Positions 26,557-30,664 of a DNA stretch of 64,000 bases are shown here, one piece after another (within the stretch, counting starts at the first letter, position 1; each line of letters starts with the position of its first letter). The translations under genes were made by a program, and so were the position numbers. The stretch is from Sinomicrobium weinanense (GTDB taxonomy: Bacteria > Bacteroidota > Bacteroidia > Flavobacteriales > Flavobacteriaceae): NCBI RefSeq assembly GCF_018863395.1, contig NZ_JAHKRR010000001.1, forward strand, positions 1,178,001 to 1,242,000. The letters run 5' to 3'. The notes under the pieces were generated by a model. The model searched no databases. It was given only the letters and a program-made list of their open reading frames with translations, and was not told where the DNA came from.

Positions 26557-26979
26557 CTAGGAACAATACTTACAGGTACCGTTGATAAGCAGAGATGACG
26601 TTCTGACGATAAAGCCTTCAGGGGTACTCACCCGTGGTATACCGGTATTCGGAAGGCAATAGGTCTGCTCGCAATGATCGCATTTAAAGTGTACATGTGC
26701 TCCCGGGCTCTCTATTTTTGTAACGGCGTATTTAATACCCCCGCTACCGTCGTTCACAGCATGAATGATCCCTTTTTCCTCAAAGCTGTTCAAGGTGCGG
26801 TAAACGGTAGATTTGTCGAACCTGTCGCCCAACTCCTCGTTGATATCGTTATAGGAAATGGCATGCCCGCTGCCTAATAACAACTGCAATATATCCATCC
26901 GTGCCAAAGTGCGTTTTAAACGATGTGACTTCAGCACCTTATTGATGTCCTTTTCCAAATTTGCTACCTCTGCACTCAT
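26557..26979 (-). CDS. Fur-family transcriptional regulator, probable zinc sensor (Zur-like)
   Basis: The 140-residue repressor has a winged-helix N-terminus (LKRTLARMDILQLLL, DRFDKSTVYRTLNSFEEKGI as recognition helix) and a Fur dimerisation domain. The structural zinc cysteines are present: CDHC (with HVHFKCDHCEQTYC) and the C-terminal CKYC. It lacks the extended His-rich tail of many Fur proteins. Its neighbours are an ABC system with a His-rich permease and a MerC gene, so I favour zinc sensing, but PerR or Fur function is not excluded. A leftward -7 box (TATATTTG at 27015-27008) precedes it. Confidence 0.87.
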   Translation of the reverse strand: MSAEVANLEKDINKVLKSHRLKRTLARMDILQLLLGSGHAISYNDINEELGDRFDKSTVYRTLNSFEEKGIIHAVNDGSGGIKYAVTKIESPGAHVHFKCDHCEQTYCLPNTGIPRVSTPEGFIVRTSSLLINGTCKYCS

Positions 26980-27067
26980 ACGTTTTTGTATTAATCCGGT
27001 ACTTTAACAAATATACGAAGAAACTGTCTATGTTTCATCGCCTTCGGCAAGGTTAAAAGATTGATGG

Positions 27068-27114
27068 AAGATTGAATGAGATTGACCCTAAACATTTCAA
27101 TCTCATTCAATCTT
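27068..27114. repeat. Perfect 18-bp inverted repeat of GATTGAATGAGATTGA
   Basis: AAGATTGAATGAGATTGA (27068-27085) and its exact complement (27097-27114) flank an 11-nt loop. Related CAATCTCATTCAATC words occur singly near 36528-36570. It lies between fur and the DUF3299-like gene. Confidence 0.85.
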
Positions 27115-27167
27115 TCCGCGTAGCGGAATTCAATCTTATAAAAAGACATCCATTCCGGAACACTTCG

Positions 27168-27605
27168 TTACAAAGCGAACCCACTGGCCCCCGTTAGGAT
27201 GTAATTACAATGATTGATATCATCGGCATTCAGTTTCAGCTTGCCGGTTATGGTCACCACTTCGTCCGTTTTAAAGGAAGGCTTTTCTTTAAACTTGATC
27301 TCCAGCACCGATTCGGGTCCGCCTCCACCGCAGAAAAAGCAGGAAGCCATCGGGTTCTGGGAAAGCATGTAGACTCCGTCTTCCGGAGAAAGGCTTAAAA
27401 AATATCCCGTAATAGAGATCTCTTCCCCTTCCAGTTCCTTTACACTTTTGCCAAAATCGGGGACCAGGAAATAATCGTCCGAGCTTTTAAAATACTTGGA
27501 TTCAAAGGAAACATCCGACAGGTCTTGCCAGGTGACTTCCTGCTGGGCGTGCATACAAAATACTGTCAGTAAAAATATCCCTGTCAAAAAAACATTCTTA
27601 ATCAT
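27168..27605 (-). CDS. DUF3299-like secreted protein of a metal-responsive operon
   Basis: The 145-residue protein has a signal peptide ending MHAQ. The mature part is an OB-like beta protein: EISITGYFLSL, then YMLSQNPMASCFFCGGGGPES, then VVTITGKLKLNADDINHCNYIL. The Cys pair CFFC next to GGGGPES could bind metal. The pattern GY..PL...LL..P...C......P resembles DUF3299, a family known beside an FtsE/X-like ABC transporter in Zur-regulated loci of Pseudomonas (PA4064-PA4066) and in the Vibrio Zrg system. It overlaps the permease gene by 8 nt, so translation is coupled. The biochemical role is not known. Confidence 0.75.
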   Translation of the reverse strand: MIKNVFLTGIFLLTVFCMHAQQEVTWQDLSDVSFESKYFKSSDDYFLVPDFGKSVKELEGEEISITGYFLSLSPEDGVYMLSQNPMASCFFCGGGGPESVLEIKFKEKPSFKTDEVVTITGKLKLNADDINHCNYILTGASGFAL

Positions 27606-28857
27606 CCTTAGCTAAAATTTTAGATACGTTGAGATAAAAAACCGGAACTGCCGCCAGTACAGTGGCAAATATCGTCAATAGTACGGTAAAAATAAACAAA
27701 AAAACTTCCTCTTTCATCATCCCCGAACTTCCTATGGTATACCTGTAACTGTCCTCGACATATCCGGATAGTATCCACATTCCGAGCCTGCTGAACAGTA
27801 TTCCGGCCACAAAACCGGTCACACCGATAAGCAGTCCCTCCACCATTACGGAAAGCAGGAGTTGTAGTCTGGAAGCCCCATAAGTGCGCAACAGGGCCAT
27901 TTCGTATTTGCGCTCCCGGACGGCCTTGTACAGGTTTACAAAAATGCTGATCCCGGAAACCAGCATAATAACCACGGCTATGAGTGTTATGGCCCTGCTC
28001 CCGGCATTCAGAAGATTAAAGAGCCGTTCTACCTCATAGTTGGGCAGGGCGGCCTGCATATTGGTGTTTTCATTGATCATCCTTGGAAGCCGCACCATGG
28101 CCATCGGGTTCTTGAACTTCACCAGCATTGAAGTGATCTCCCTGTCCTCTTCCGGGATATCGTGCTCGTGTTCATGCCCGGAATGATCGTGGTCGTGCGC
28201 ATCACCGTGTTCTTCTGCGCCATCGTGTTCCTCCTCTCCATGTTGATGAACAAGCCACACACTTTCCAGGTTACCAATAATCAATTGGTCGGCCACGGTG
28301 TTGCCGGGTTTCAATATGCCCACCACGGTAAAAGGGTGATGGTCATGGGCCTCCGTACTGTTCTCCATCAGGCCGTGCGACCCGGAAAATGTACTGCCCA
28401 GGGTTAACCCAAGTTTTTCAGATACAGTGGCGCCGATCACCACCTCGAAAGGTTTCTCCCAGAGCCTTCCTTCTTCCGGTTCGGCACCGTAGAGCTCCAG
28501 AAAGCTCTTTTCCGTTCCCAATATCCGGTATCCTTTGTAATTATCGCCATAAGAAACCGGGATGCCTTGTTTTACCAGTGGGTTCCTGGCTATTTTTTCG
28601 GCGTCCTTGAGCTTTATGTTACCTGTGGGGACATCGATATGCAACACGGAAGACAATACCAGTTGTAAAGGGCTTCCCTTGGCCCCTATAACCATATCTA
28701 CCCCCTTGATGTTCCTTTCCAGCTTGCCATCGAGCTGCCTGGTAATCTGTAACATCAATGAAATAAGGCCAATACTGAGCACAAGTAACAAAGTGCTTAG
28801 CAAGGTGCTCAACGGGTTGGCCAGGGCATTCTTTATTCCCAGTTTATAGATGTTCAT
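27598..28857 (-). CDS. ABC transporter permease, MacB/FtsX type, with His-rich loop
   Basis: The 419-residue protein has the four-helix FtsX/MacB layout: one helix near residues 16-38, a large extracytoplasmic domain, then three helices (about 280-305, 335-360 and 385-410). The external domain contains a His/Asp/Glu-rich stretch at 204-232 (VHQHGEEEHDGAEEHGDAHD and onward) that should bind zinc or a similar metal. The ATPase gene overlaps its start by 4 nt (ATGA) and the DUF3299-like gene overlaps its end. MacB-type permeases usually act by mechanotransmission on envelope partners and not by simple import, so the direction of metal movement is open. Confidence 0.9.
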   Translation of the reverse strand: MNIYKLGIKNALANPLSTLLSTLLLVLSIGLISLMLQITRQLDGKLERNIKGVDMVIGAKGSPLQLVLSSVLHIDVPTGNIKLKDAEKIARNPLVKQGIPVSYGDNYKGYRILGTEKSFLELYGAEPEEGRLWEKPFEVVIGATVSEKLGLTLGSTFSGSHGLMENSTEAHDHHPFTVVGILKPGNTVADQLIIGNLESVWLVHQHGEEEHDGAEEHGDAHDHDHSGHEHEHDIPEEDREITSMLVKFKNPMAMVRLPRMINENTNMQAALPNYEVERLFNLLNAGSRAITLIAVVIMLVSGISIFVNLYKAVRERKYEMALLRTYGASRLQLLLSVMVEGLLIGVTGFVAGILFSRLGMWILSGYVEDSYRYTIGSSGMMKEEVFLFIFTVLLTIFATVLAAVPVFYLNVSKILAKDD

Positions 28858-29480
28858 AATCGGATGTTATTGGAAAATTGAGAGGCAATTCTTTGATCGT
28901 GGGTAATGACTACCAGGCTGGCATTGGTATGCCCGGCCTGTTCTTTGAGTAATTCGGTCACGGCCATACAGTTTTTATCGTCCAGGCTGGAGGTCGGTTC
29001 GTCGGCCAGGATAACATTGGGATTGTTCACCAGGGCTGCGGCTATGGATACTCTTTGTTTCTGCCCTTCACTGAGATTTGCTCCCCTGGCCCCTGCCTTT
29101 TCCGCAATATTCAGCCTCTCCAGTATATCCCGGACGCGCAACCTGTCCTGCCCCACCCCGGAAAGGCGCTGAATAAGCAGGAGGTTTTCTTCTACCGTAA
29201 GGGCATGTATAAACCGGGCTTTCTGGAATACAATACCAATATGCCTGCCGCGGAATTTATCCAGTTTACGGTGAGAAAGCCGGGTAATATCTGTTTCTCC
29301 TATATTTACGGTACCGCTGTCGGGCGTAAGTAAGCCCGCGAGCAGATGAAGAAAGGTGGTCTTCCCTACTCCGGAATCGCCCAGTATGAGCAAATGCCCC
29401 TTCTTTTCTATCGCTATATCCGGAAACCGGAATTGTTGTTCTCTGTCATAACCGAAACAGAGTTCTTTTGTCAGTATCAT
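28854..29480 (-). CDS. ABC transporter ATP-binding protein (LolD/FtsE-like)
   Basis: The 208-residue ATPase has Walker A GDSGVGKTT, Q-loop VFQKARF, signature LSEGQKQRVSIA (Glu in place of the common Gly-Gly) and Walker B VILADEPTSSLDDKN, with H-loop THDQR. I place the start at the ATG at 29480. The upstream in-frame TTG at 29501 is part of the -7 box of the leftward promoter. GAAGGA lies directly before the ATG. It powers the permease encoded next in the operon. LSEG in place of LSGG is a small variation seen in this subfamily. Confidence 0.9.
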   Translation of the reverse strand: MILTKELCFGYDREQQFRFPDIAIEKKGHLLILGDSGVGKTTFLHLLAGLLTPDSGTVNIGETDITRLSHRKLDKFRGRHIGIVFQKARFIHALTVEENLLLIQRLSGVGQDRLRVRDILERLNIAEKAGARGANLSEGQKQRVSIAAALVNNPNVILADEPTSSLDDKNCMAVTELLKEQAGHTNASLVVITHDQRIASQFSNNIRL

Positions 29481-29498
29481 TCCTTCGAATTTTATGCA

Positions 29499-29528
29499 CA
29501 AATATACACAATGCTTTTATTAATGCAA
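29499..29528 (-). promoter_or_regulatory. Promoter of the ABC/DUF3299 metal operon
   Basis: Read leftwards, TTG (29528-29526) and TATATTTG (29506-29499) are 19 bp apart. The TTG lies inside operator-like palindrome 1 (29524-29538). The transcript would start about 12 nt before the ATG at 29480. Confidence 0.8.
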
Positions 29529-29538
29529 TTTTGTTGCA
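29524..29538. promoter_or_regulatory. Operator-like palindrome 1 (TGCAAT-N3-GTTGCA)
   Basis: The 15-bp site TGCAATTTTGTTGCA is extended by outer matching bases to a 19-bp inverted repeat (29522-29540). It covers the -33 elements of both divergent promoters, so a bound repressor would block both. Confidence 0.75.
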
Positions 29539-29561
29539 TTTATATTTTTATTATATATTTG
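29531..29561 (+). promoter_or_regulatory. Promoter of the MerC gene
   Basis: TTG (29531-29533) and TATATTTG (29554-29561) are 20 bp apart. A second TTG at 29534 gives a 17-bp spacing. The ATG follows at 29578. Confidence 0.85.
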
Positions 29562-29574
29562 CAACAAAGTAGCA
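29560..29574. promoter_or_regulatory. Operator-like palindrome 2 (TGCAAC-N3-GTAGCA)
   Basis: TGCAACAAAGTAGCA has the same 6-3-6 layout as palindrome 1, each with one mismatch to TGCAAC-N3-GTTGCA. It covers the start point of the MerC transcript. Centres of the two sites are 36 bp apart. Confidence 0.7.
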
Positions 29575-29577
29575 TTT

Positions 29578-29973
29578 ATGAAATACAGCAAAACAAATTA
29601 TCGGTACCTGTACGATTATCTCGGTTTTTCCGCCTCCTTTCTGTGTGCCATACATTGTGCCGTGGTCCCTCTTCTGATCACTTTTTCTGCCCTGGGCAGC
29701 CTGGCCTTCCTGGCCAATCCTGCCATAGAATGGACCTTTATCGGTCTCGGTCTTTTTCTGGCCTTGTTATCCCTGTGGCCTTCGTATAAAAAGTATCACC
29801 ATAAAAAACGGCCGCTCCTGTGGGCCATATCAGGGTTTGCACTTATTGCCCTCAGCCGCATAGAGGTTCATGAACTCTGGGAAGCTGTCCTTACTCCCCT
29901 GGGAGCACTGGGAATTTCTATGGCACATTATATCAACTGGAAATATCTGAAGCAATGCAGACATAAACACTGA
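29578..29973 (+). CDS. MerC-domain membrane protein
   Basis: The 131-residue protein has four hydrophobic segments (about 17-40, 46-64, 77-93 and 98-117) and the MerC hallmark FLCAIHCAVVPLL, where two cysteines and a histidine sit in the first helix and can bind a soft metal. A cytoplasmic basic loop (PSYKKYHHKKRP) and a His-rich C-terminus (CRHKH) add ligands. In mer operons MerC imports mercury. In Bacteroidota, lone MerC genes with zinc-type regulation are more likely to handle zinc; this is inference from the shared operator region with the ABC operon. Confidence 0.88.
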   Translation: MKYSKTNYRYLYDYLGFSASFLCAIHCAVVPLLITFSALGSLAFLANPAIEWTFIGLGLFLALLSLWPSYKKYHHKKRPLLWAISGFALIALSRIEVHELWEAVLTPLGALGISMAHYINWKYLKQCRHKH

Positions 29974-30407: not shown

Positions 30408-30533
30408 GGTTGACGGTTGACGGTTGACGGTTGACGGTTGACGGTTGACGGTTGACGGTTGACGGTTGACGGTTGACGGTTGACGGTTGACGGTTGACGG
30501 TTGACGGTTGACGGTTGACGGTTGACGGTTGAC
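30408..30533 (-). repeat. Perfect array of 18 GGTTGAC heptamers (GTCAACC on the sense strand)
   Basis: Exactly 18 uninterrupted copies cover 126 bp, and a partial GGTTA follows. The array ends 20 bp before the ATG of the 101-aa membrane protein. It is the longest and least diverged heptamer array in the window, so the most recently expanded. Confidence 0.98.
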
Positions 30534-30664
30534 GGTTAGTCAATATCAGTTATATTTTGTTATTGTCGTTCAGGAGTCTATTTGTTTTTTTAACTTTTTT
30601 TCAACACATTCTCATCCTCAATCTACTATCAATCTCCAAATCTCCAAGCAACAACAACCTACAT

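Follow-up and report, generated by a model that had tools for sequence, protein, structure and literature searches.

A cluster of five genes in a 64-kb stretch (hereafter the window) of the 5.36-Mb genome of Sinomicrobium weinanense, a member of the Flavobacteriaceae, is likely a zinc-starvation gene cluster of this family, as judged by comparative sequence analysis. The genes encode an ATP-binding cassette (ABC) ATPase, a MacB/FtsX-type permease, a small secreted ZrgE/DUF3299-like protein, a Fur-family regulator and a MerC-family protein. Zinc control of the locus through a shared operator is strongly supported, since the gene classes predicted to lie behind this operator are recognised Zur target classes, and this comparison is the main evidence for a zinc response. 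Furthermore, the comparisons support description of the transporter as a version of the Zrg system without ZrgA, in which a permease loop carries the His-rich stretch.

An earlier note, made from the window alone, had described overlapping genes with an adjoining Fur-family gene and a diverging merC, and all five genes were found where it had placed them (Table 1). Starting at position 29480, the minus strand carries the genes for the ATPase, the permease, the small secreted protein and the Fur-family protein, in that order. The ATPase and permease genes overlap by 4 bp (28854-28857) and the permease and small-protein genes by 8 bp (27598-27605), while a gap of 188 bp precedes the Fur gene. 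The merC gene starts at 29578 on the plus strand and diverges from the ATPase gene, leaving a spacer of 97 bp between the two. For the ATPase, the ATG at 29480 is a likelier start than the TTG at 29501 because it agrees with the starts in other Sinomicrobium. The closest named relatives found were Sinomicrobium oceani and S. pectinilyticum (77-78% identity in the small protein), and both genomes contain the block of merC and the ATPase-permease-small protein-Fur genes, with folE beyond merC.

A shared operator and its predicted regulon

The spacer between merC and the ATPase gene contains two copies of a palindrome of the form TGCAAY-N3-RTWGCA, 36 bp apart, and a window-wide scan detected no further match with zero or one mismatch elsewhere in the 64 kb. 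The two sites are interlaced with putative promoters of both transcription units. TTTG is a -33 promoter element, and such an element was read for merC, with a -33-like ATTG for the ABC operon inside operator 1. The -7 elements follow TAnnTTTG, the sigma-A -7 consensus of Flavobacterium (PMC9723704), and that of merC is merged with operator 2. A scan for E. coli-type -35/-10 promoters returned nothing above chance.

In order to evaluate conservation of the operator, 49 loci were gathered by protein search, without use of the motif, and compared with dinucleotide shuffles. A site with at most one mismatch was present upstream of the ABC or MerC gene in 11 of the 49 loci (shuffles: mean 0.05, maximum 1). 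Furthermore, when exact 6-bp inverted repeats were sought blindly upstream in the protein-collected loci, the operator palindrome and its offset versions ranked first. Both Sinomicrobium relatives have two sites at the same place, at a spacing of 38 bp, and sites were also present at the Subsaximicrobium locus and in a Cytophagales metagenome-assembled genome.

Intergenic sites with zero or one mismatch in the source genome comprised the two in the window spacer, two in the promoter of a TonB-dependent receptor gene divergent from a DtxR-ZIP operon (38 bp apart, with the same -33/-7 layout) and a site at a second folE, or folE paralogue, together with a site at an FAD oxidoreductase gene and, weakly, one between a third Fur-family gene and a P-type ATPase gene; the other one-mismatch sites examined lie within open reading frames (ORFs). 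When the operator was fused to the -7 box, exactly three perfect matches were obtained in this genome, corresponding to the merC/ABC spacer, the TonB receptor and the folE paralogue. A relaxed scan allowing three mismatches yielded 161 forward matches versus 102 in the control and was mostly noise. Across 120 Flavobacteriaceae genomes the exact palindrome occurred 48 times, compared with 6 for the reversed control (summed columns), and the -7-fused form occurred 27 versus 8 times in 239 genomes. Away from these three promoters, the source genome has an operator-like palindrome on the -33 region of the FAD/NAD oxidoreductase gene (L023 6292-6306; C1:1061291), whose divergent neighbour encodes an RND pump joined to an outer-membrane efflux domain; the weak palindrome between a third Fur-family gene and a metal P-type ATPase gene (L027 5363-7972; contig C25); and a weak operator match (L212; C1:1047101) 32 bp upstream of the gene for a large secreted protein, M1-type metallopeptidase-like in appearance.

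In relatives, the commonest arrangement behind the sites was a Fur-family gene facing MerC-FolE, and a Fur gene was the immediate neighbour in 13 of 30 exact-site loci. Other genes behind sites encode TonB receptors, COG0523 GTPases of the ZigA type (536 bits against a cut-off of 600; one GTPase comes from a same-genus genome), a ZIP transporter and HisI in Flavobacteriaceae relatives, and small-protein/RND operons. No iron or peroxide genes were seen among the genes behind sites. A protein related to the metal-independent carbonic anhydrase was also encoded behind a site (locus L192; 109 bits, below the cut-off of 350), with look-alike genes behind the operator in L183, L191 and L195; a zinc-sparing switch of carbonic anhydrase is possible from this placement. 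Separately, in several Flavobacteriaceae (L146, L147, L150, L164, L166, L167 and L169) the palindrome lies just upstream of a gene for a small Cys/His-rich protein, followed by a CusA/CzcA-like RND pump gene.

Zur targets elsewhere include folE2, yciC/zigA, hisI2, zupT and carbonic anhydrase, and the regulons described in Proteobacteria, Firmicutes, Actinobacteria and Cyanobacteria share with the predicted one zinc import, COG0523/ZigA, folE, hisI, carbonic anhydrase and TonB receptors (PMC6103462). In contrast to those regulons, the operator here, TGCAAC-N3-GTTGCA, is merged with the Bacteroidota -7 box TAnnTTTG, and MerC is a frequent target. The proposal of the earlier note that the locus handles zinc is supported at the level of the predicted regulon, the operator being common to ZIP-neighbour, ZigA, folE paralogue, HisI, carbonic anhydrase-like, Fur and MerC genes. 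By the names of the two families, MerC could instead point to mercury resistance, and the product of the Fur gene could be a regulator of the iron or peroxide type. This is extremely improbable given that the single MerC gene of the genome diverges from the ABC operon, that merC in relatives is followed by folE and faces a Fur gene across the same box, and that the box-linked genes serve zinc sparing and zinc transport and do not belong to the iron or peroxide classes; mercury resistance and iron/peroxide control were set aside on these regulon grounds.

The literature searched, which extended neither to subscription literature nor to RegPrecise, contained no previous description of a Zur operator from Bacteroidota and nothing specific on a Zur of this phylum, and a review of Zur does not mention Bacteroidota (PMC6103462). 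With the operator, its fusion to the -7 box of the phylum and the list of targets, zinc control in Flavobacteriaceae can be put directly to the test.

Transporter, secreted protein and MerC

The ATPase is 32-34% identical to proteobacterial ZrgC-type ATPases (32% to that of P. aeruginosa), and the permease is 29% identical (E 2e-44) to the P. aeruginosa permease encoded between the DUF2796/ATPase and DUF3299 genes. The earlier note had counted 15 or so metal-binding residues in the permease; the actual number is higher (Table 1), and the loop is the most His-dense 40-residue stretch among window ORFs of at least 330 aa (10 His; next 6). The property extends to homologues, as 45 of 51 Bacteroidota permeases have at least 5 His per 40 residues (median 8, up to 20). 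In two proteobacterial operons, ZrgA holds the His-rich loop (11 and 14 His per 40 residues) and the permease has 3. No ZrgA/DUF2796 (PF10986) was detected in the source genome and none scored over the cut-off in 296 Bacteroidota genomes, whereas the same search detected ZrgA on the P. aeruginosa and Phaeobacter records used as positive control. The His-rich stretch in Bacteroidota is thus in the permease, in place of a separate ZrgA. The structure model of the permease (predicted local distance difference test score, pLDDT, of 40) was unusable.

The small secreted protein had been labelled DUF3299-like. A direct scan of the protein and of its genome with PF11736 (DUF3299) gave no match, so the kinship was shown indirectly, by structure, by profile-profile comparison and by operon position. 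The top VIA-align structure match was 4hsp (PA4066; Z 10.6, 109 aligned residues, root-mean-square deviation 2.9), but further OB folds scored nearly as high (9.7), and the match was for that reason not relied on in isolation. Foldseek by itself returned OB-fold proteins such as RPA and tRNA synthetases (E about 1e-3, TM about 0.4), and a sequence search of the PDB with the small-protein profile yielded chance matches only. In the profile-profile comparison, hhalign of the small-protein family against a DUF3299 set gave 98.4% probability and E 7e-15. Furthermore, intermediates were found in Bacteroidota, namely proteins above the PF11736 cut-off whose genes hold the equivalent place in the operon and which are also matched by the hidden Markov model of the window family. 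The CFFCGxxGPE-type motif is nearly invariant in the Flavobacteriales family; at this place DUF3299 proper carries residues of the GCxHxPPP type. C89 is conserved family-wide, and C92 in nearly all members; H132/C133 were rejected as metal ligands, being kept in the five closest homologues but not across the family. In one family of the order (f7; L089-L106) the ZrgE-like gene is tandemly duplicated, with strongly diverged copies (146 and 105 bits in L089).

The claimed kinship to Zrg and PA4064-PA4066 is supported by homology, gene order and fold, but not as a plain copy. ZrgABCDE of Vibrio cholerae and V. parahaemolyticus (PMC9820375, PMC9817125) has in common with the window a MacB-like permease, a separate ATPase and a secreted ZrgE, the homologue of PA4066. 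It is zinc-regulated in Vibrio; for the window, zinc regulation is read from the operator and regulon comparison. In the window locus neither ZrgA nor ZrgD was seen, the His stretch is within the permease, merC is divergent, and in the ZrgE-like protein a CFFCG-type motif takes the place of the GCxHxPPP type. With no ZrgA detected, the system is described as a Zrg variant and not as Zrg proper. PA4063-PA4066 of Pseudomonas aeruginosa (PMC11481552, PMC8561739; PDB 4hsp) share the ATPase-permease-DUF3299 order and a similar fold of the third protein; PA4063 (DUF2796/ZrgA) is present there and absent here, and the P. aeruginosa permease has no His loop. The P. aeruginosa record examined showed the PA4063-66 arrangement, DUF2796-ATPase-permease-DUF3299 next to oprG, and a Phaeobacter plasmid carries Fur-DUF2796-ATPase-permease-DUF3299. 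Two of the PLSDB plasmid records (L174, L175) look chromosomal, namely a 4.9-Mb Aeromonas caviae 'plasmid' and a P. aeruginosa record with the oprG/PA4063-66 region.

Like MacB and LolCDE mechanotransmitting transporters, the permease combines MacB_PCD and FtsX domains with a large periplasmic domain inserted between membrane helices 1 and 2. The top scores of the ATPase among curated models were for DevA, FtsE and LolD, none over the cut-off. A LolCDE- or MacAB-like envelope transporter of lipoproteins, peptides or drugs, beside the Fur gene and merC by chance, would account for these affinities. It would leave aside the conserved ATPase-permease-ZrgE-like synteny, the His-rich loop and the operators common to zinc genes, and the system differs from MacB and LolCDE in its split ATPase, its His loop and its zinc-type regulation, with no MacA adaptor or TolC partner in the operon, which consists of the genes for the ATPase, the permease, the ZrgE-like protein and Fur. 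Such an envelope transporter is considered very unlikely, and the LolCDE reading was likewise set aside on regulon grounds.

MerC shares PF03203 with the MerC of mercury-resistance operons. It differs by its CxxHC motif, a zinc-type regulon and the absence of adjoining mer genes: no merA/merR context was found, and its neighbours in the window and in relatives are ABC, Fur and folE genes. Genomes usually have one MerC, as does the source genome. In 14 of 27 same-order genomes having both, MerC was encoded within 6 kb of the small protein (compiled count), and in two loci from other families of the phylum (L126, L128) a MerC-like gene is directly 3' of the DUF3299-like gene on the same strand. 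The earlier suggestion of MerC as a partner is consistent with its divergence from the operon, the shared operators and the conserved proximity, and this genomic link supports MerC as a recurrent neighbour and putative partner of the Bacteroidota ABC operon. Non-mercury MerC proteins of the phylum would thereby gain a likely role in zinc supply.

Proposed mechanism and identity of the regulator

The account regarded as probable is a Zur-repressed zinc-starvation locus in which zinc captured by the permease loop of the ABC system is handed on to MerC. In zinc-replete cells, the Zur-type Fur protein would bind as two dimers to the operators at their 36-bp spacing, where it would mask both promoter elements of merC (-33 and -7) as well as the ABC operon's -33 region. 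Under zinc shortage, the repressor would leave and the merC and ABC units would both be transcribed, the regulator gene at the end of the ABC unit perhaps being co-derepressed. The ATPase-permease pair would act as a MacB-type mechanotransmission machine of the ZrgBC/PA4064-65 kind, the His/Asp/Glu loop replacing ZrgA in the capture of periplasmic zinc, and the ATPase stroke, aided by the secreted ZrgE-like OB-fold protein, would hand the metal on. MerC, in the inner membrane and with its CxxHC site, would be the likeliest route across that membrane.

In MacB-type permeases, ATP-driven movement is passed on to the periplasm and no ion path is known, which makes a separate inner-membrane route attractive, with MerC as the best candidate on hand. 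We entertain, with considerable doubt, the stronger proposal that the Bacteroidota MacB-type pair is an ATP-driven periplasmic loader and not a zinc channel, feeding MerC as an inner-membrane zinc importer; if true, zinc would be taken up in two parts, by a route that resembles neither ZnuABC nor ZIP.

The position of the window Fur gene suggests its product as the operator binder: the gene ends the site-bearing operon in both Sinomicrobium relatives and in Subsaximicrobium. The protein has HxH, CxxC with a further Cys, and a C-terminal CxxC, giving the structural CxxC...CxxC arrangement. In a tree of 30 sequences, with long branches and few references, it fell on the E. coli Zur side, and the canonical Fur of the same genome grouped with E. 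coli Fur (Fur/Zur split 98/94). DtxR was also considered as the binder and rejected, because the site pair beside its gene sits on the divergent TonB-receptor promoter and a DtxR gene is absent next to most of the other sites.

Several observations weigh against the proposed mechanism. Many genomes with the ABC operon showed no recognisable site in the 49-locus survey, and in many no MerC is encoded close to the operon. In relatives, boxes are found ahead of RND efflux operons as well, a misfit for a pure uptake regulon, for which Zur as an activator is one possibility. PA4064-65 have been argued to export pyochelin-cobalt, not to import zinc (PMC11481552). The window Fur protein scored below the cut-off of every curated Zur, Fur and PerR model (28, 37 and 37 bits; the cut-off of the E. 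coli-type Zur model is 167 bits, and the curated Fur-family models cover other phyla), and has no counterpart of the Cys that follows the preceding strand in E. coli Zur and in most box-adjacent Bacteroidota Fur proteins. A third, Zur-like Fur paralogue (contig C25, about 139546-139971) keeps this Cys and could be the operator binder.

In that case the locus would still be zinc-regulated and the window Fur protein would sense something else. The paralogue lies directly upstream of a metal P-type ATPase gene with a weak site nearby, as would fit such a role; the closing position of the Fur gene in the site-carrying operons and the Fur genes adjoining 13 of 30 exact-site loci speak for the window protein, and the paralogue is the unlikely candidate of the two.

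A zinc-regulated exporter was weighed as well, in which the MacB-type pair would export a metallophore or metal-metallophore during zinc starvation and MerC or ZIP would act in uptake separately. PA4065 mutants accumulate cobalt in a pyochelin-dependent manner (PMC11481552), MacB-type permeases do not have the many-helix path of known metal importers (PMC9820375), and the boxes at RND efflux operons would fit export. Nevertheless, there is no MacA/TolC partner in the operon, the His/Asp/Glu loop, with its high His density, points to free metal over a metallophore, and V. cholerae strains deleted for zrgABC have the behaviour of mutants in zinc import (PMC9820375); export is thus judged improbable. 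The location of the His stretch, which bears on the question of zinc import versus metallophore export in Zrg and PA4063-66, points to the permease itself as the place where free metal in the periplasm is handled.

Feature coordinates and further observations

Table 1. Features of the zinc-type locus, in window coordinates
Feature	Position	Strand	Description
Fur-family regulator, Zur-type candidate	26557..26979	-	140 aa; PF01475, 48 bits
18-bp perfect inverted repeat	27068..27114		between small-protein and Fur genes; possible terminator/attenuator
Secreted OB-fold protein, ZrgE/DUF3299-like	27168..27605	-	C-F-F-C-G-x-x-G-P-E motif; model pLDDT 76
MacB/FtsX-type permease, ZrgB-like	27598..28857	-	PF12704 (MacB_PCD), 49 bits; PF02687 (FtsX), 50 bits
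Periplasmic His/Asp/Glu loop of permease	28144..28251	-	residues 203-238; 10 His, about 16 Asp/Glu
ABC ATPase (ZrgC/LolD/MacB-type)	28854..29480	-	208 aa; PF00005, 109 bits
-7 element TATATTTG, putative ABC operon promoter	29499..29506	-	direct reading; Flavobacterium sigma-A -7 consensus
Operator 1 TGCAATTTTGTTGCA	29524..29538		overlaps -33 region of putative merC and ABC promoters
-33 element TTTG, putative merC promoter	29530..29533	+	20 nt before -7 element; direct reading
-7 element TATATTTG, putative merC promoter	29554..29561	+	merged with operator 2; fused pattern recurs
Operator 2 TGCAACAAAGTAGCA	29560..29574		sites also in homologous spacers of loci L019, L020, L021 and L022
MerC-family inner-membrane protein	29578..29973	+	CxxHC motif; PF03203, 84 bits (cut-off 27.6)

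At the locus of Subsaximicrobium wynnwilliamsii (L021 4323-5797) the ATPase and permease genes are split into several ORFs, and merC, one operator and the genes for the ZrgE-like protein and Fur are unbroken; the splits reflect assembly errors or else a decay restricted to the transporter.

Beyond merC, the window contains 18.6 perfect copies of the 7-bp unit GGTTGAC (30408-30537), immediately upstream of a gene for a small membrane protein whose start is likely at about 30388. Orthologues of this gene in Sinomicrobium begin without the array, and the heptanucleotide repeat could confer phase-variable expression of the membrane-protein gene.

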